From: Marivirga tractuosa DSM 4126
GTDB taxonomy: Bacteria; Bacteroidota; Bacteroidia; Cytophagales; Cyclobacteriaceae
Length of the DNA: 64,000 nt
NCBI RefSeq assembly: GCF_000183425.1
Contig: NC_014759.1
Span: forward strand, 558,001-622,000
Direction of reading: 5' to 3'
Shown: in pieces, positions 1,494 through 13,105 of the stretch
Position numbering within the stretch: the first letter of the stretch is position 1
Layout: every line of letters starts with the position of its first letter
Position numbers and translations under genes: made by a program
Notes under the pieces: model-generated
The model's database searches: none
What the model was told of the DNA's origin: nothing
The model's input: only the letters and a program-made list of their open reading frames with translations

Positions 1494-2174
1494 ATGTTCT
1501 TTAAAAATATTGCTGACATTCAGCTTAAGAATAATACTATAGTAACTGGGAGAAAATTTGAAAAAACAGCTGGAGATTTTGAGGATGAAATTCGAGATTT
1601 AGATTACAACGGCAACGGCCTTAAAAAAGATAAAGCTGTAGAAAATGCTAACATCCCGAATTTTGCTCAGGTTTTTTACTACAAGATTTATTCAAGATTA
1701 GCAATTCCAACACAGGAGGAATTCTTAAAGACATATTTTGATTCTTTTGTAATGGAAAGGAATAATGGAAATATACTTATAGAGAATAAATGGTATTCTG
1801 AGGAGGGGGTAAAAAGTAGAATGCTGAGAACTTACCCATCATTAATAAGGGATTTTCATTTTTATTTATTAGCTGAAAATTCGGAGAAGTTTGATCAAGT
1901 TAGGTTTTCACTTTTTAGAGATGTTGCTAAAGGGCTTGATTTGGAGGTTAAATATAAGGGGTATTTTTTTTACATTTCCCTATATATAGATACGAAAAGA
2001 AGTAGAGAATTCAAGATAAAGAAAGGTGATAGACATGATTACAGCCAAGTAGTTGAAATAGAAATGCCTGTGAAATTTAGAGAGCTAAGGGAAGTTGGTC
2101 GTTTTTATTTATTAGGAAAAGAGCATGTCAAATTATTAATAGAAAGAATTGATAAGTATGTACAAGGGCAATAA
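1494..2174 (+). CDS. Unrecognised protein inside the HpaII-type R-M operon
   Basis: This 226-residue protein is not recognised. It lies between the methyltransferase (1-bp gap) and the HpaII-like endonuclease (17-bp overlap), so it is almost certainly co-expressed with them. It has no signal peptide or membrane segment. The C-terminal half is rich in alternating charged and aromatic residues (DLEVKYKGYFF at about 155-165, then DTKRSREFKIKKGDRH), a pattern that could suit a beta-rich nucleic-acid-binding domain. No helix-turn-helix of the usual controller (C) protein kind is evident, and it is not Vsr-like. It could be an accessory subunit of the endonuclease or a controller, but the sequence does not decide. 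Confidence 0.8.
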   Translation: MFFKNIADIQLKNNTIVTGRKFEKTAGDFEDEIRDLDYNGNGLKKDKAVENANIPNFAQVFYYKIYSRLAIPTQEEFLKTYFDSFVMERNNGNILIENKWYSEEGVKSRMLRTYPSLIRDFHFYLLAENSEKFDQVRFSLFRDVAKGLDLEVKYKGYFFYISLYIDTKRSREFKIKKGDRHDYSQVVEIEMPVKFRELREVGRFYLLGKEHVKLLIERIDKYVQGQ

Positions 2175-3249
2175 AGGAGAATGGAGTGAGCTTTATGTTT
2201 TTTTTCAATTATTAAGTGAGGGGAAACTATATTCAGCAGATGAAAAATTGGAAAGAAATGGAAATTTTGTAGAAGTACAATCTATTAAGAGAAATGATTT
2301 TGGGAAACCAAAGGACTACAAAATTGAGACTTCAGGAAATGTCAACATTGTAGATTCTGAAACTGGCAACATTTTAAGAGCAATACCACGAGCTGAAATT
2401 GTTGATATAACAAGAAATCTGATACGTGAATTAAAACAAGGAAAAGGGAAAGCATTTGGAGTTTCAAGTAGCTTGGAAGCAAACATAAATAGTTTCATGA
2501 TCGAAAAGGTTAGTGAAAGTTATGGGTTAAAAGGGGATATAAATTTATATATCTATGATCCTGTAAATTCAATATTGACTGATCAAAAATTCAGTATAAA
2601 ATCTTTACTTGGGAGCAATCCTACAGCATTTAATGCAAATCCAACTACTAACATAATTTATGAAATATTAACTAAGGACGGCAAACCTTTAGAAGAGAAT
2701 GAAATTATTGAGATCAATGAAATTGATACTAGACATAAATACATAGATAGAGTTAGATTTATCTTAGATAATTATAGTATTCATTACAGGGATTACCAAG
2801 GTGAAGTATTTAAGTTGAACTTACAATTAATTGATAGTTCGCTACCAGAGATCATTGCAAGTGCAGTGTTAAACAAATATGCTTTTGGGATTACAAAGTT
2901 TAATGAAGTTATAGAAAAACTTAATGATGCAAACCCTTGTAATTACAATCTTAAACACGGGCATTCATTTTACGAGTATAGATTGATCAACTTTATGGTT
3001 GAATCATCTTTGGGAATGACATCAGCAACTGTGTGGTCAGGAGAATATGATGTTATTGGAGGGATTATAATTGTAAAAGGTAATGAGGAGGTGGTTTCTT
3101 ATCATTTAATCGATTTTAATAAATTCAAAAAGTACTTATTGGATAATTGTAGGTTGGATAATCCTTCTGGATCTAAAATGGGATATGGAACAGCATATAT
3201 TGAGGAAGGTAAGTCTTATATAAAATTAAATTTTCAGGTTAAAGTATAA
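2158..3249 (+). CDS. Type II restriction endonuclease, HpaII family
   Basis: The 363-residue product begins MYKGNKGEWSELYVFF, which resembles the start of R.HpaII as I remember it. Together with the linked M.HpaII-like methyltransferase this supports cleavage at CCGG. A longer reading frame begins at a TTG at 2149, but the ATG at 2158 places the KGNKGEWSE motif at the N-terminus as in the family, so it is preferred; it overlaps the upstream gene by 17 bp. The E in GEWSE and the EVQSIKR segment near residue 45 are candidates for metal-binding residues, but I cannot assign the active site with certainty. The region is more AT-rich than the chromosome to the right, in keeping with horizontal transfer. 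Confidence 0.8.
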   Translation: MYKGNKGEWSELYVFFQLLSEGKLYSADEKLERNGNFVEVQSIKRNDFGKPKDYKIETSGNVNIVDSETGNILRAIPRAEIVDITRNLIRELKQGKGKAFGVSSSLEANINSFMIEKVSESYGLKGDINLYIYDPVNSILTDQKFSIKSLLGSNPTAFNANPTTNIIYEILTKDGKPLEENEIIEINEIDTRHKYIDRVRFILDNYSIHYRDYQGEVFKLNLQLIDSSLPEIIASAVLNKYAFGITKFNEVIEKLNDANPCNYNLKHGHSFYEYRLINFMVESSLGMTSATVWSGEYDVIGGIIIVKGNEEVVSYHLIDFNKFKKYLLDNCRLDNPSGSKMGYGTAYIEEGKSYIKLNFQVKV

Positions 3250-3469: not shown

Positions 3470-3781
3470 ATGAAGGTGAATAAAAATCTTGAAAACGACA
3501 AAATTGATTATAATGTGCATTTTGAGGCGAAAGAAGTAGTTGGGAAAGGAGCATATGAGGTGTTTTATCAAACAAATAAATTTAAATCATTTATCGAAAT
3601 TACTGGACATTTAATTCAATTCCATAGCGGTAAATCTGAAGATTATAAATTTGAGCCAGATGAAATTGAGAAGGAATATGAAAAAGTTTATGATCAAAAC
3701 TGGGAACAGATCGAAGAAGATATATTGAACGGGTTTGCTGAATACGCACTTACCAAGGGGGGTATTGATAGAATTTATTAA
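3470..3781 (+). CDS. Hypothetical acidic protein
   Basis: This 103-residue protein is strongly acidic and has no signal peptide or membrane helix. It is not recognised. It sits alone, 220 bp after the HpaII-like endonuclease, and ends about 190 bp before the convergent nuclease/TIR cassette, with a hairpin near 3951 between them. The 220-bp gap upstream shows no gene; an AT-rich stretch just before the ATG may hold its promoter. Its small size and acidity inside a defence island would suit an antitoxin or a DNA-mimic type protein, but that is speculation. Confidence 0.6.
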   Translation: MKVNKNLENDKIDYNVHFEAKEVVGKGAYEVFYQTNKFKSFIEITGHLIQFHSGKSEDYKFEPDEIEKEYEKVYDQNWEQIEEDILNGFAEYALTKGGIDRIY

Positions 3782-3950
3782 AGAAAACAGTATTATTCAA
3801 CCTTATAGCCTTACTTACTCATGAACCAGGTAATTAAGCGAAAAATCAAGGATGAAATCCATGATTCTTTTGCAGTGACTATCGGCAAAAAATAAGACAA
3901 ATTAATCTTGTGCAATTATCATGGAAAAACCGTGCGGGTTTAGAGAGTGA

Positions 3951-3969
3951 ACTATTTGATTCAAATAGT
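3951..3969. terminator. Hairpin between convergent genes
   Basis: ACTATTTGA and TCAAATAGT form a near-complete palindrome around T3960. It lies between the forward gene ending at 3781 and the reverse TIR gene ending at 3974 and is followed by CTTTTATT, so it may act as a weak terminator. Confidence 0.4.
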
Positions 3970-3973
3970 ACTT

Positions 3974-4456
3974 TTATTCGTCCGATAATAGGCTAATAAT
4001 AGCTATTGCCGCTACACCACCAAGAATCCATCCTAAAGCATTTTCATTATTTTTTCTGTCGTATAAATTATTAGCATTTTTTATTTGATTTCTTACCTTA
4101 TTCAACCCTGATTGTGGGTAATGTCGATTGAAAATTAAAACGTTCGGGTGATTGGATAATTGTTGATTAATTGTAACAGTGTCTTCTACTAACAAAAGAC
4201 TTGGTATTTTCTTTTCAACAGCTAAATTCCACTCACTAAGTACATTCGTGTTTCTATTTCCGTATTCCGTAATTAATCCAATGAATAAAGAAGACTCGTT
4301 GATTTTCTTAAATGCAGATTGACTGACAATATTGCTATAGTCATCAAAGCTTGAGTCGATTTGAAAGTTTTCAGTTCTTAACAAATCAGCAATAAGAGTT
4401 AGGACATACTGCTCAGTGTCCTGCATTGCGTATGATATAAATGCTTTCCTTTTCAT
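3974..4456 (-). CDS. TIR-domain protein with C-terminal membrane helix
   Basis: The N-terminal 125 residues read as a TIR fold: KAFISYA at 4-10 is the usual first strand, a polar helix follows, ESSLFIGLIT (54-63) is a core strand, and Glu75 in LSEWNLAVEKKIP sits where the catalytic glutamate of TIR NADases is found. TIR domains in bacterial immunity cleave NAD+ or make signalling nucleotides from it. After a polar linker, residues 141-157 form a single hydrophobic helix, so the protein is probably tail-anchored. Its ATG overlaps the stop of the nuclease gene by four bases (ATGA), which implies coupled translation. A nuclease plus a TIR effector as separate proteins suggests an abortive-infection defence pair. 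This is inferred from domains and location. Confidence 0.72.
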   Translation of the reverse strand: MKRKAFISYAMQDTEQYVLTLIADLLRTENFQIDSSFDDYSNIVSQSAFKKINESSLFIGLITEYGNRNTNVLSEWNLAVEKKIPSLLLVEDTVTINQQLSNHPNVLIFNRHYPQSGLNKVRNQIKNANNLYDRKNNENALGWILGGVAAIAIISLLSDE

Positions 4457-4974
4457 TGCTTTGCTTTAATTTGAGTCATTTTTGCTTCCATCTCTTTTGT
4501 GTAAACATAGTACTTAGGAAAAAATTGTTGGTGTAAATTACCTACAAAAATAAGCTTATTTATAAAATGATTGCCGTTCCAAACTTCATATTGGTAACCA
4601 TCCCTACAATTGTTTCTTAAATTTTCAAATGTTTGTGTTACTCCAGCCTGAACAGAATTTTTAGCAATTAGAAGATACCCACTTGCATCATATTCCCGAA
4701 TTAATGTAGGTATATTTATCTTATCAAGATTACTCTTATAAAGAGTATCATAAAATTTGCATTGTATAACCCATTTTCTTTCAAATGTTACTATGGAATC
4801 ATCAACTAATGAAGTAACTAAAATGTCTCGCCCACCATCAGGACCTTCGCCCGATGATTCAACTTTTACACTAACAATCTGGTTGTCGTCAAGATTGATA
4901 CATTCTCGAAAATAGGCAGCTGCCAGGTCTTCAAACTCAGCCCAATGATCTATTTCAGAGAAGTCTATTTTCAT
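4453..4974 (-). CDS. Mrr-like PD-(D/E)XK nuclease
   Basis: This 173-residue protein has the layout of a restriction_endonuclease/Mrr catalytic domain: Glu15 in FEDLAAAYF on the first helix, GPDGGRDI with Asp50 in the second strand, and QCK (71-73) as the E/QxK element. The rest, with LLIAKNSVQAGV and a final mixed segment, fits the remainder of the fold. No DNA-recognition, helicase or nucleotide-binding domain is fused to it, unlike most Mrr-type restriction enzymes. It is the first gene of a two-gene operon with the TIR protein (4-bp overlap). A role in cutting invading DNA, or in sensing it and triggering the TIR partner, is inferred. Confidence 0.75.
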   Translation of the reverse strand: MKIDFSEIDHWAEFEDLAAAYFRECINLDDNQIVSVKVESSGEGPDGGRDILVTSLVDDSIVTFERKWVIQCKFYDTLYKSNLDKINIPTLIREYDASGYLLIAKNSVQAGVTQTFENLRNNCRDGYQYEVWNGNHFINKLIFVGNLHQQFFPKYYVYTKEMEAKMTQIKAKQ

Positions 4975-5124
4975 TATTTTATATTTAGCTAACGCTCTTT
5001 CTGATATAAATTATTAACATATTAATGATAGCCAGAAAATACTAAGGCTAGCAAGAACTCTGATTTTCAACACTACAAATTAATGGATTATTTTGGTGAA
5101 CAAAAGCCTTAACCCTGAAATAAG

Positions 5125-5763
5125 TTAACTTCTTTTATCCTGTGAAGAAAATGCAATCAAATTAAACATTTCCCTCATTCTTGACCTCACTCTGTTTCCG
5201 TATAGATTTTCCAATTCATCAGGATTCAGGTTAGTGGTTGCATGAGTTATCATGCCTCTATTGGTGAAAAGGCTATAGCGATTAAGGAGTATTTCAGCTA
5301 TTGTATTGGTTTCATTTCCGAAGTGTTTGATGGTTGATTCTAGGCCGAGGTCATCGAGGCATAGGGTGCGTGGCACCATTTGGACTTGATAGCGTTGGAA
5401 ATGGGCTTTTGAGTATTTGTTAATAATGGAAAAGCCGTGGTCTAGAAATTCGTAAGAAATTTCTCTGGTGGATTTAACTGGATATTTGTGGACTGTGTGG
5501 AGGAAGTGGCGGAATAACATCATTAGGGTTGTTTTGCCACAACCTACAGGACCGGTTAACAAAAGCCCTTTTCTTATGGAAAGTTTGTATTGCTCACAAA
5601 GCTTTTCATCCTCGAAAAAATACGCTAGTATTTTGAAGATAATTTCGTAGTCTGCAGGGTAAACCTTAAAGTGATTTCCGAATTCTGATTGACCTGCCTT
5701 TTGCAAGAAATCAATGCATCTTGCGAATTGGAATTTGTTGCTTGAGTAGTTTTTTGGTTGCAT
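5125..5763 (-). CDS. DnaC/IstB-like AAA+ ATPase (helicase loader type)
   Basis: This is a P-loop ATPase with Walker A GPVGCGKT (71-78) and Walker B LCLDD (134-138), followed by a sensor-like segment ending in TNLNPDEL and an arginine-rich RVRSRMREM that may contain the arginine finger. The 212-residue length and layout match DnaC-type helicase loaders of phages and integrative elements. It follows the replisome-organiser-like gene in the same direction, with a hairpin between them, so the two probably bring host replicative helicase to the element's origin. The N-terminal 60 residues may bind the partner protein. Confidence 0.75.
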   Translation of the reverse strand: MQPKNYSSNKFQFARCIDFLQKAGQSEFGNHFKVYPADYEIIFKILAYFFEDEKLCEQYKLSIRKGLLLTGPVGCGKTTLMMLFRHFLHTVHKYPVKSTREISYEFLDHGFSIINKYSKAHFQRYQVQMVPRTLCLDDLGLESTIKHFGNETNTIAEILLNRYSLFTNRGMITHATTNLNPDELENLYGNRVRSRMREMFNLIAFSSQDKRS

Positions 5764-9046: not shown

Positions 9047-9068
9047 AAAGGCAGATTAGTCTGCCTTT
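9047..9068 (-). terminator. Integrase terminator
   Basis: AAAGGCAGA (9047-9055) and TCTGCCTTT (9060-9068) form a perfect 9-bp stem with a TTAG loop; on the minus strand it runs into TTTTCTTC. The integrase stop codon (9056-9058) lies in the loop. Confidence 0.7.
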
Positions 9069-10309
9069 CTCATCTGTTCTGAGCTTGAAAGCTTTTCCTT
9101 GAGTGCTGCCATGTCAGTACCGATTTTATTCTCTACTACCTTGGCATAGATTTGAGTGGTTGATAATTTGGTATGACCTAACATTTTGCTAACTGTTTCC
9201 ATTGGGACACCATTAGTTAAAGTAACTGTAGTAGCGAATGTATGCCTTGCAATGTGAAATGTTAGCTGCTTTTTGATTCCGCAAAGGTCTGCTATTTCCT
9301 TTAAATAGGCGTTTGTTTTTTGGTTGGAAACCACTGGTAATAATTGGTTTTCTTTAGCCTTGGGATGATCTTCGTATTTTTCGATCAATTCAAGTGCTTT
9401 TGGTAACAAAGGGACTGAAAAGGGGGTGGAGGTTTTCTGACGTTTATATTGGATCCATTTTTCGCCATTAATTCCAATTACAATATGATCTTTGCTTAAA
9501 TTGAATAGGTCAATATAAGAAAGCCCTGTATAGCAGCTGAAAATAAATATATCCCTGATTTGTTCTAGTCTGGCAATGTCTAATTCCTTTACCTCAATTG
9601 CTGACAGTTCTTCTACTGTTAGATAAGTTCTAGTAGATTTTTCATAAGAGATATGATACTTCTTAAAAGGGGTATCGGTTATCCAGTCCATTTTGTAAGC
9701 ATAATTCAACACTTTTCTAAACCGGCACATGTGTTTCATTATCCCATTATGACCTATTGGTTTTTGATGGTCTTTTGGTTTCCATGCTCTCAAAAACGCT
9801 TCGAAATCAAGTAGAAACTTATAATCTACTTTTTCAATGGCTATATCTGAAAGGTTCTTTTTTGTACTTAAGAACCTTTCAAAGTAGCGCTCAGTCACTT
9901 TATAGTGCTGTAAGGTTCCTGTTGAGAAATTATGGATGTTTTGATCATAGTGATACTTTGAGGCTGACAGAAGTGTAATTTGCTGTTCTTCCTCGAGGTT
10001 GAATAGTTTGTTTCGGATAATTTCTGCTGAGATCAATTCTTCATCAAGGATTAAATCTTCAAAGATCTTATGAACCTTATTTAATAATTGATCAAGAAAA
10101 CGGTTGAGTTGCTTTACATCTTGTGCTGTTCCGTTTAATCTCTGCCTTTTTGAATTCCATTTTTTGAATTCTACTTTCTTACTCAGGGAGGATTCTACTT
10201 TTGAATTTCCTGTAGAAATTCTTAAATACAAAGGAGCTAAGCCGTTTTTGATTCGGTGTTTCTTTACGTAAAGTAAAGTGGTTAATGAATAGTTTTTTGA
10301 ATTGCTCAT
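9056..10309 (-). CDS. Tyrosine recombinase / integrase, IntDOT-like
   Basis: This 417-residue site-specific recombinase has an N-terminal arm-binding region (1-110), a SAM-like core-binding domain (about 115-215) and a catalytic domain (about 228-400). The box II residues are present: HIAR with His352 and Arg355, His379 in LGHTKLS, and the nucleophile Tyr388. The first catalytic arginine is replaced by Ser264 in CYTGLSYID, as is known for IntDOT of the Bacteroides element CTnDOT. The gene points away from the adjacent tRNA-Arg, and the 240 bp between them hold inverted and direct repeats that may be arm-type or regulatory sites. It most likely integrates and excises the element at the tRNA 3' end. 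Confidence 0.93.
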   Translation of the reverse strand: MSNSKNYSLTTLLYVKKHRIKNGLAPLYLRISTGNSKVESSLSKKVEFKKWNSKRQRLNGTAQDVKQLNRFLDQLLNKVHKIFEDLILDEELISAEIIRNKLFNLEEEQQITLLSASKYHYDQNIHNFSTGTLQHYKVTERYFERFLSTKKNLSDIAIEKVDYKFLLDFEAFLRAWKPKDHQKPIGHNGIMKHMCRFRKVLNYAYKMDWITDTPFKKYHISYEKSTRTYLTVEELSAIEVKELDIARLEQIRDIFIFSCYTGLSYIDLFNLSKDHIVIGINGEKWIQYKRQKTSTPFSVPLLPKALELIEKYEDHPKAKENQLLPVVSNQKTNAYLKEIADLCGIKKQLTFHIARHTFATTVTLTNGVPMETVSKMLGHTKLSTTQIYAKVVENKIGTDMAALKEKLSSSEQMRKAD

Positions 10310-10491: not shown

Positions 10492-10525
10492 AAAAAGCCT
10501 TAAACAGTTAAATTTAAGGCTTTTT
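10492..10525 (-). terminator. tRNA-Arg terminator
   Basis: AAAAAGCCTTAAA (10492-10504) and TTTAAGGCTTTTT (10513-10525) form a perfect 13-bp stem-loop, 23 bases past the 3' end of the tRNA on its own strand. If the element is inserted at the tRNA end, this terminator is carried by the element. Confidence 0.75.
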
Positions 10526-10547
10526 GAAGCTAATTAAATTAGCTAAG

Positions 10548-10621
10548 TGATCCGTTCAGGATTCGAACCTGAGACCTACTGCTTAGAAGGCAGTTGCTCT
10601 ATCCAGCTGAGCTAACGGACC
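10548..10621 (-). tRNA. tRNA-Arg (anticodon TCT)
   Basis: The minus strand folds as a complete cloverleaf: acceptor GGTCCGT with ACGGATC and discriminator A, U8 and A9, D stem GCTC/GAGC, anticodon stem ACTGC/GCAGT with loop CTTCTAA giving anticodon TCT, and T arm CAGGTTCGAATCCTG. The 3' CCA is not encoded. It reads arginine AGA codons. Its 3' end faces the integrase and is the likely attachment site. Confidence 0.95.
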
Positions 10622-10867: not shown

Positions 10868-12193
10868 TCACCCGTCAGTTCCCTTACTATTCATGCTCCT
10901 CACCGCTCTTTCTATTCCTGCTGGAGTTAATGGAAACATAGGTATTAGTTGCTTTATAAGCTGAATGGTATAAGTATGCGGCCAATATTTGATAGGTTCT
11001 GGATTTAACCAAACGCATTTCTTGAATTTCTGTGGGATGGCTTTCAAGCTTTCTATACTTAATGAATTGATTTCATAAGGGGCCATGGCGGCATCACCCA
11101 TTATAAAGACTCGATAATCTTTGTTGTGACTTAATAGCTTTTCAATAGAAATGGGTTTCGTTCTTCTTTCATCAGTATAAACCCTATCGTAAATAGTATT
11201 GTGGAAATAATACACTTCCAAGTCGTGGGCGAAGCGCGTTCGCATTTTCCTGAAAAGGTTTTGTACTGAGCGTACATAAGGTGCCATTGAATAACCACCA
11301 TTATCAATCAAAACTATGATTTTCAATTCCTCATTTTTTTCGCTCGACATTTCCGGAATAAACAATCCACCACGCTTTAAACCTGATTTAATGGTTTGAG
11401 GAACATCTAATTTTTCGGTGGCGCTTTCCTCTATAACACCTTTAATGGAAGCTAAAGCCGCATCAATATTATTATCGTTTAAAGTGGAGTCTCGATCAAT
11501 TGGGAAATAATTTTTATCGCCCATTACTTTCTGGGCCATCTTCCCTCCTCCTTGACCGCCAACACGAATACCATTTTTAGCAGCTCCTCCATGTCCATAA
11601 GGAGAAATTCCACCGGTTCCAATCCAGTGACTACCGCCACCATGTCGAGTTTTTTGCTGTTCACGAACCTTTTCCATACGCTCCAGCAATTCTTCCAATG
11701 ACAATTCAGAATAATCAGCCATTTTATCCAGTTTTCGTTCTGCAATCTCATCATCCTCATTAATTGGGTCAGTATCTTGCTGATCTGGATTATCCTTATC
11801 CCATATTTCTTTACCGGAAACCACTTCTTTTATATCATAACTAGTCAAGTGGACTTCATCCAGAAAAGTATTGACCAATTCCTCATCCGTAATATCTCGA
11901 TCTGCTTCTTCCACATAATCGGTTTTCCATTTTTGAAAGGTTTCAGATCGCTTTATGGCATCTTCTAGGGTTTGGCCTGGCTTGATAGGTATATGTAGAA
12001 AATAAGCATAATAAGCTTTTGTGAAAGGCCCCATATCCTCAGAATCCTTCACAATAATACCTTTTAAAACATTGTAAATATCTCCTAAGGTTTTCACCAG
12101 CCCTTTTTGCATAGCTTTTCTGAGTAAAAGCAAAGTGCGGACATCGGCTTTTAAGCCATGTGATCGGAAGTGTTCTGGTAATGTGCTGAGCAT
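10868..12193 (-). CDS. VWA-domain protein, CoxE/ViaA-like partner of MoxR
   Basis: This 441-residue cytoplasmic protein has an alpha-helical N-terminal half, a Gly-rich stretch (185-220, HGGGSHWIGTGG) and a C-terminal von Willebrand A domain (about 290-425). The metal-site motif is atypical: residues 297-302 read DNGGYS where DxSxS is usual, so metal binding may be weak or lost. It follows the MoxR ATPase gene by 6 bp in the same direction. MoxR/VWA pairs act as chaperones that insert cofactors or remodel complexes; the target here is not visible in the window. Confidence 0.8.
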   Translation of the reverse strand: MLSTLPEHFRSHGLKADVRTLLLLRKAMQKGLVKTLGDIYNVLKGIIVKDSEDMGPFTKAYYAYFLHIPIKPGQTLEDAIKRSETFQKWKTDYVEEADRDITDEELVNTFLDEVHLTSYDIKEVVSGKEIWDKDNPDQQDTDPINEDDEIAERKLDKMADYSELSLEELLERMEKVREQQKTRHGGGSHWIGTGGISPYGHGGAAKNGIRVGGQGGGKMAQKVMGDKNYFPIDRDSTLNDNNIDAALASIKGVIEESATEKLDVPQTIKSGLKRGGLFIPEMSSEKNEELKIIVLIDNGGYSMAPYVRSVQNLFRKMRTRFAHDLEVYYFHNTIYDRVYTDERRTKPISIEKLLSHNKDYRVFIMGDAAMAPYEINSLSIESLKAIPQKFKKCVWLNPEPIKYWPHTYTIQLIKQLIPMFPLTPAGIERAVRSMNSKGTDG

Positions 12194-12199
12194 AGTAAA

Positions 12200-13105
12200 T
12201 CAATTCAAATTAGCACCAAAGCTTTCATCTGCACCAATCATTCTGCTGACTCTTTCCATATCAGCTTGAGTTTTGATTAAAGCACCTATTCCTTCCAAAC
12301 CAGCAATTTTCTTTACAGCTTCATTTGGTGCAATTTCACTCATATATTTAAGCCAATTCAGGATTTCCCGAGTTGTTGGTGCTCTTTCCAAACCTAATCT
12401 TCTCAAATGATAAAATACATCTAAAGCCACCCTTACAACTTTCTCGTCCATTTTAGGATGGTGTTTACTAATGATATTATTCATCGTATCCTGATCAGGA
12501 AAGTCGATATAGTGATAAATACATCTGCCTTTAAAAGCGGTTGGCAATTCCTGCTCACGATTAGACGTGATCACGATAGCGGGCATATCTTCTTCTGAAA
12601 CTTCAATTACCTCTCCAGATTCAGGCATAATGAACTTTCTATGACTTAAGGCATACAATAAATCATTTGGGAATTCTCTTGGTGCTTTATCAATTTCGTC
12701 AATCAATAAAACCGAATTAGGTTTGCTGTAAGCCACTGCAGCTGGCCCTTTCACCACATAATCATTTAATGATTCTGGATTTCTATCACCTGTGGTTAAT
12801 TTGCTATCTAAACCTTTTTCTTCTCTTTGAGCATTCAAGATTTCAATTTGAGAGTCACGCAAATATTTAACATGATCAAAGCGAGCCACAAATTGCTCCA
12901 CATTACTTTTTGAACCAACAGGATAGACTTCTAAATCTAATCCTCTATCTTTTGCATAGTGAATGGGTAATTCTGTTTTACCTGTTCCTGGTTCGCCTTC
13001 AATAAGAAGCGGCATTCCTAAAGTTCTTGCCATGTGAAAAGCTTGCGCCAATGCTGGGTCGCATAAATATTTTTCGGATCCTGTCCAATGAGATGTTTCT
13101 GCCAT
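12200..13105 (-). CDS. MoxR-type AAA+ ATPase
   Basis: This 301-residue AAA+ protein shows Walker A GEPGTGKT (37-44), Walker B LLIDEID (133-139), sensor 1 ITSNREQELP and a lid domain with APTTREILNWL. Length and motifs match MoxR ATPases, which assemble as hexamers and remodel partner complexes. It is the first gene of a two-gene operon with the VWA protein. The family name is firm and the substrate unknown. Confidence 0.88.
   Translation of the reverse strand: MAETSHWTGSEKYLCDPALAQAFHMARTLGMPLLIEGEPGTGKTELPIHYAKDRGLDLEVYPVGSKSNVEQFVARFDHVKYLRDSQIEILNAQREEKGLDSKLTTGDRNPESLNDYVVKGPAAVAYSKPNSVLLIDEIDKAPREFPNDLLYALSHRKFIMPESGEVIEVSEEDMPAIVITSNREQELPTAFKGRCIYHYIDFPDQDTMNNIISKHHPKMDEKVVRVALDVFYHLRRLGLERAPTTREILNWLKYMSEIAPNEAVKKIAGLEGIGALIKTQADMERVSRMIGADESFGANLN

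Follow-up and report, generated by a model that had tools for sequence, protein, structure and literature searches.

What do two small overlapping genes on a mobile stretch of Marivirga tractuosa DSM 4126 DNA do for their host? The window, the whole stretch analysed here, comprises 64,000 nucleotides (NC_014759.1, positions 558,001 to 622,000). Between positions 3974 and 4974 its minus strand encodes an Mrr-type PD-(D/E)XK nuclease of 173 amino acids (4453–4974), followed by a protein of 160 amino acids with a predicted TIR fold and a C-terminal hydrophobic helix (3974–4456). The coordinates of the open reading frames (ORFs) bear out an overlap noted in a first-pass annotation made from the letters alone: the nuclease stop and the TIR start share the four bases ATGA (4453–4456). 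The two genes, together called the cassette below, most probably constitute a compact mobile anti-phage system, one that is apparently undescribed to date.

The two genes are conserved and co-inherited, and their catalytic residues are kept. Scanned with the nuclease profile, 84,980 genomes, one per species, yielded 68 loci, and IMG/VR added one more. Forty-two of these are close (L002–L042 and L070, 36–89% identity in the best segment), while a fragment (L043) and the distant loci L044–L069 (22–34%, mostly larger proteins) were set aside. Alignments were built from 41 of the 120 nuclease matches listed out of 178 and from 28 of 32 TIR matches, with locus rows joined later. A TIR-family gene lies next to the nuclease in 38 of the 42 close loci, and in 39 when L023 is counted, whose TIR is cut at the end of the fetched stretch; the adjacency across genomes on which the first-pass annotation had staked its proposal is thus real. 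The contigs of L033 and L035 end 76 and 70 bases past the nuclease, and the partner in L032 is divergent, matches no Pfam family and on our own reading is TIR-like. Spacing in the 38 loci is tight: a 4-base overlap in 21, a 1-base overlap in five, a gap of 0–9 bases in nine and a gap of 40–319 bases in three, all Aureispira (L008, L010, L011), where the TIR profile match crosses one TAA. Among 405 ORFs around the 38 loci, members of the TIR family turn up at all 38 and members of the nuclease family at 37, overlapping ORFs having probably cost L041 its place in the automatic selection; the next commonest family reaches four loci. Distances within the two families correlate across 36 pairs, namely the window and 35 loci after one of each near-identical pair (L028/L029, L030/L031, L039/L070) was dropped, with r = 0.60 (Spearman 0.35; best of 2000 permutations 0.22), a value that still contains shared species history. 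The nearest neighbour is the same in both distance matrices for 17 of the 36.

At the level of whole genomes, a TIR-family match is found in 38 of the 39 genomes behind L002–L043, exactly one in 37 of these, and the only genome without a match is that of the fragment L043. The cassette is sparse: across an even sample of 395 genomes of the phylum, scanned with at most nine candidates scored per genome, strong matches to both profiles occur only in the window's own genome, with weak matches to the nuclease profile in four others (31–53 bits) and to the TIR profile in six others (27–33 bits). Other TIR-profile matches in this sample lie in ORFs of 156–830 amino acids, and the two of these loci that were read, L091 and L092, carry other TIR proteins. 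At the 26 distant Mrr loci no next ORF listed starts like the cassette TIR, several having no ORF there and a profile scan not having been made; the length window of the protein search covered separate genes and excluded nuclease-TIR fusions. Record titles place the cassette mainly in Bacteroidota, and also in genomes labelled Pyrinomonadaceae, Ignavibacteria, Dojkabacteria and Woesearchaeota. Plasmids gave one distant nuclease match (26.5% identity), and the phage record collection held no TIR relatives. Viral contigs gave one locus with the nuclease query and none with the TIR query, although that locus, L070, encodes a TIR, which marks the scan as insensitive.

The nuclease is a catalytic domain standing alone, as the first-pass annotation had proposed. 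It matches Pfam Mrr_cat (PF04471) with an E of 9.4e-5 and 22.9 bits, above the cut-off of 21. The residues named in advance, Glu15 (codon 4930–4932), Asp50 (4825–4827) and Gln71-Cys72-Lys73 (4756–4764), are those under constraint: the quartet Glu15, Asp50, Gln71 and Lys73 is complete in 37 of 39 nucleases, with Gln15 in L022 and L041. This E, D, Q-x-K site and the Mrr_cat fold together define an Mrr-type PD-(D/E)XK nuclease. The AlphaFold2 model (pLDDT 89.6, pTM 0.83) is closest to AF1548, AspBHI and MspJI, with Can2 and Cap4 as related folds, and the fold fills nearly all of the 173 residues. A type IV Mrr restriction enzyme consists of an N-terminal winged helix (Mrr_N) and Mrr_cat; the window nuclease, in which Pfam detects only Mrr_cat and Mrr_cat_2 at E up to 0.1, is not of this type. 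MspJI and AspBHI, which are modification-dependent restriction enzymes, likewise carry an N-terminal part before the catalytic domain that is missing here. Neither the Pfam scan nor the fold comparison found a recognition domain or a CARF, SAVED, SLOG or Macro part, and no PDB sequence matched the nuclease profile at E up to 0.1. Compared with its L002 relative, the only one used, the nuclease has a dN/dS of about 0.07 and the TIR protein one of about 0.10 (NG86).

The product of the second gene is supported as a TIR fold by its family matches in sequence. Alone, the window protein scores under the Pfam TIR_2 cut-off of 28 (E 1.3e-4, 22.8 bits); in the TIR alignment, which contains the window protein, TIR_2 is matched by all 29 members (E up to 0.1, best 3.5e-8). 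Its AlphaFold2 model (pLDDT 88.3, pTM 0.86) is compatible with TIR domains and with N-glycosidases, and lies slightly nearer to nucleotide N-glycosidases. Glu75 (codon 4232–4234), at the position of the helix C catalytic glutamate of NAD+-cleaving TIRs and correctly singled out in the first-pass annotation, is Glu in 38 of 39 members and Asp in L022. The tryptophan of the WxxxE motif, in contrast, is absent in 38 of 39, where the position holds Arg (28), Asn (4), Lys (3) or other residues (3), with Trp in one. The sole PDB sequence match, a tetratricopeptide repeat (TPR) protein that on our own reading has an N-terminal TIR, aligns a Trp at this position. The Glu of WxxxE is needed by most bacterial NADase TIRs, while the Trp is strongly conserved in producers of cyclic ADP-ribose (cADPR) and less so in TIRs that are noncatalytic or make other products (PMC11374754, citing others). 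With the W position replaced throughout most of the family, cADPR signalling by the cassette TIR is therefore unlikely. NAD+ hydrolysis may still occur, since the active NADase SpbK carries a Tyr four positions ahead of its Glu192 (PMC12847820). The earlier idea of NAD+ loss as a second stage is at most a possibility. Of the 39 pairs, L022 is the only one in which both active sites are altered, Glu15 to Gln in the nuclease and Glu75 to Asp in the TIR.

The C-terminal helix foreseen for the TIR protein is predicted by AlphaFold2 at residues 138–157 (3986–4045, minus strand) and bears a conserved W-x-x-G-G segment: W143 is kept in 37 of 39 members, G146 in 38 and G147 in 37. Over the best 19-residue stretch, mean hydropathy reaches 2.15 in the window protein; in 30 of 39 members it is 1.6 or more, which would suit a membrane helix. 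The helix is probably a tail anchor, and its GG pair suggests helix packing within the membrane. The tail is less hydrophobic in L005, L007, L008, L010–L012, L038 and L042, and absent in L040; where such tails keep the W and GG, the helix may bind a protein instead.

The settings of the cassette are rich in defence genes. The neighbours of 17 loci (117 proteins) match 221 PADLOC families at E up to 1e-10, against nine for 17 controls on the same contigs (106 proteins); these tallies count families, of which one protein can match many. The neighbour sets leave out ORFs over about 900 and under 100 amino acids, and three of the loci (L009, L013, L015) have a common neighbourhood. Eighteen control stretches were fetched, one of which was dropped along with the near-identical test locus L029. 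Among the 25 matched families listed are Gabija, prokaryotic Argonaute (pAgo), a cyclase, a 2TM effector, type I specificity and others.

Which of the two proteins receives the signal? A clue comes from Candidatus Dojkabacteria, where a STAND NTPase is joined in one protein with a TIR that has the W-GG segment (L086:1904–6142, 1412 amino acids). A second such fusion lies on another contig (P0153/P0154), P0154 being 73% identical over the TIR part. At the contig edge of L086, after an in-frame stop, some 40 residues of open frame read like the nuclease C-terminus and finish in the ATGA where the TIR begins; the contig ends of L035 and L086 do not overlap, so that the adjacency of these two loci is not proven. 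A STAND NTPase on the TIR hints that this protein receives the input and that the nuclease is the output.

The model we prefer, held at slightly less than even confidence, is that the TIR triggers the nuclease without a diffusible messenger. The TIR would sit at the inner membrane through its W-x-x-G-G tail and assemble there in response to a phage part or to a membrane disturbance caused by infection. The assembled layer would contact the small Mrr nuclease and switch it on, and the activated nuclease would cut DNA and halt phage growth, probably at a cost to the cell. The active site of the TIR probably has a role as well, though not in making a cADPR-type messenger; it would more likely hydrolyse NAD+ or another nucleotide in place, or bind a nucleotide as a switch. 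A bolder form of this model, doubtful in its entirety, is a minimal membrane immune switch of 333 residues in which a tail-anchored TIR lacking a cADPR-type site assembles at the membrane and directly gates a free Mrr nuclease, serving as scaffold or switch, or acting on a substrate other than NAD+, instead of making a messenger; as far as our searches show, it would be the first binary TIR-DNase system. Bacterial TIRs are mostly viewed as NADases or messenger makers. Here a tailed TIR and a bare DNase both retain their active sites while the messenger-type tryptophan is replaced, which offers a small and directly testable case of TIR assembly controlling another enzyme, and the cassette, at about 1 kb, is easily cloned.

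In the opposite order, which is that of the first-pass annotation, the Mrr nuclease would recognise foreign or modified DNA, cleave it and by this engagement activate the TIR, which would drain NAD+ as a suicidal second stage. This is unlikely, though the least so of the alternatives: the nuclease has only its catalytic domain, most members carry a basic or polar residue and not an aromatic one at TIR position 71, and the sensor-type STAND fusion is found on the TIR. A Thoeris-like relay, with a small NAD+-derived messenger from the TIR activating the nuclease, would fit the shared layout of two genes, a TIR and an effector, and also the relatedness of the nuclease fold to Can2 and Cap4, enzymes switched on by cyclic nucleotides. 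It is nonetheless improbable, because the cADPR-linked tryptophan is missing and the nuclease, its length nearly filled by the fold, has no ligand-binding domain; on these two points it was rejected as the main model.

Two further explanations change the nature of the system itself. The second protein could be a nucleotide N-glycosidase of the wider TIR-DrHyd class instead of an NADase, destroying nucleotides, perhaps modified ones, at the membrane, with the MspJI-like nuclease cleaving modified DNA alongside; we give this little probability. An equally small chance attaches to the cassette having no defence role, being a mobile unit with a house-keeping, regulatory or addiction function that reaches defence islands merely through its mobility. 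In favour of this, several copies, such as L004 and L016, adjoin genes that on our own reading are ordinary chromosomal ones. Against it, known defence systems use both domains repeatedly as effectors, and the two are common modules that can replace each other (PMC9122126 and PMC10586767). The distribution is also patchy, with the pair in one of 395 sampled genomes, and the neighbourhoods are much richer in PADLOC matches than the controls.

A comparison with known systems sets the cassette apart. Thoeris, which pairs the TIR protein ThsB with ThsA, shares its plan of a small TIR protein and an effector partner. Thoeris effectors, however, are of the SIR2-SLOG or TM-Macro type, whereas the TIR's partner here is a nuclease in 39 of 42 loci, and the TIR is tailed, without the WxxxE tryptophan and with no ThsB_TIR match among the 29 aligned members at E up to 0.1. 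SIR2-SLOG and TM-Macro domains are absent from the eight other window ORFs of the surrounding element (Pfam, E up to 0.1) and from ten ORFs of its remainder (E up to 0.001), a scan that covered all but a few small ORFs. The short-pAgo associated proteins of the PADLOC model Aga_REase-TIR-PNTD1-PNTD2, in which we take Aga to mean Argonaute-associated, also combine a REase and a TIR in one system; seven of 41 nuclease relatives match this model weakly (best E 3e-4). The cassette, in contrast, consists of two free proteins, and no Argonaute or APAZ domain was found in the pair or in the element ORFs scanned, which sets it outside SPARTA and the short pAgo systems. Mrr and TIR are also found fused to APAZ beside short pAgos, as PMC10474274 reports.

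The first-pass annotation's list of TIR systems, confined to Thoeris, STING and Argonaute partners, was too short, leaving out this PADLOC model, TIR-NLR and the TIR system with transmembrane proteins of the P2-like phage AC1 (PMC9122126). The AC1 system resembles the cassette in its membrane-linked TIR but has three genes, its transmembrane proteins are separate from the TIR, and the available text mentions no nuclease. SpbK is likewise a TIR defence protein activated by assembly, but its N-terminal domain binds a phage portal, and the text consulted in PMC12847820 mentions no nuclease partner. Pfam detects no STAND NTPase in the window pair, so it is neither a TIR-NLR nor an Avs system. In Avs4, Lamassu (LmuA) and Cap4 the nuclease is part of a larger protein, whereas here it stands alone, a bare catalytic domain resembling those built into Avs, Lamassu and CBASS proteins. 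The model PDC-M58A of the PADLOC candidate PDC-M58 is matched by all 41 nuclease relatives at E up to 0.1, the window nuclease covering only positions 34–73 of its 154 (E 8e-5). Identity with a PADLOC system is not supported by the scans of both families, which gave just partial or weak matches. The claim of an undescribed type thus stands within what was searched: no system in PADLOC-DB 2023 matches the cassette in full, and searches of the open-licence PMC literature, as distinct from subscription papers, bioRxiv and the newest defence catalogues, gave no description of the pairing. None appears in the consulted portions of PMC9122126, PMC7159879, PMC10474274, PMC12847820, PMC9503650, PMC11374754, PMC9519451, PMC12259885, PMC3710099 and PMC10586767. 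The cassette would add a system missed by the 2023 PADLOC models.

The cassette lies in an integrative element beside a restriction-modification operon, just as the first-pass annotation had it. The element occupies 23,638 bp in a tRNA-Arg (tct) gene, called at 10547–10621 on the minus strand as the integration target, and is bounded by exact 52-bp direct repeats at 10512–10563, the right attachment repeat, and G000:C2:544926–544977. Its tyrosine recombinase (integrase) is encoded at 9056–10309 (minus strand). The cargo includes the HpaII-like restriction-modification genes, a TmtA (Tiamat)-like gene, a PDC-S42 match and an AlbA_2 protein. On the plus strand lie a C5-cytosine methyltransferase (215–1492) and an HpaII-like endonuclease (2149–3249; Pfam RE_HpaII, E 1e-125); the 226-residue ORF between them (1494–2174) matches nothing in Pfam, NCBIfam or PADLOC at E up to 0.1. 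A promoter and terminator scan of positions 3700–5300 found sites no more numerous than in shuffles. The TmtA-like gene looks split: two overlapping ORFs (L113:10232–11458 and 11380–12792; G000:C2:550232–552792, minus strand) match the first (4–421) and middle (448–595) parts of one TmtA model.

Several copies show how the cassette travels and varies. The same cassette occurs in a Flavobacterium metagenome-assembled genome (MAG; L039) and in the IMG/VR viral contig (L070), and carriage by a prophage is likely because of this viral copy and an apparent terminase small-subunit gene nearby. The cassette at L018, in a MAG labelled Woesearchaeota, has sequences close to those of the Flavobacteriaceae locus L021, which reflects either transfer or a binning error. 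The Saprospiraceae MAG G416 has five TIR-family genes (L087, L088, L089), among them an orphan TIR at L088 with no nuclease within the 6 kb read, two nuclease-TIR cassettes on one contig, and a three-gene form in which another TIR-like protein lies upstream.
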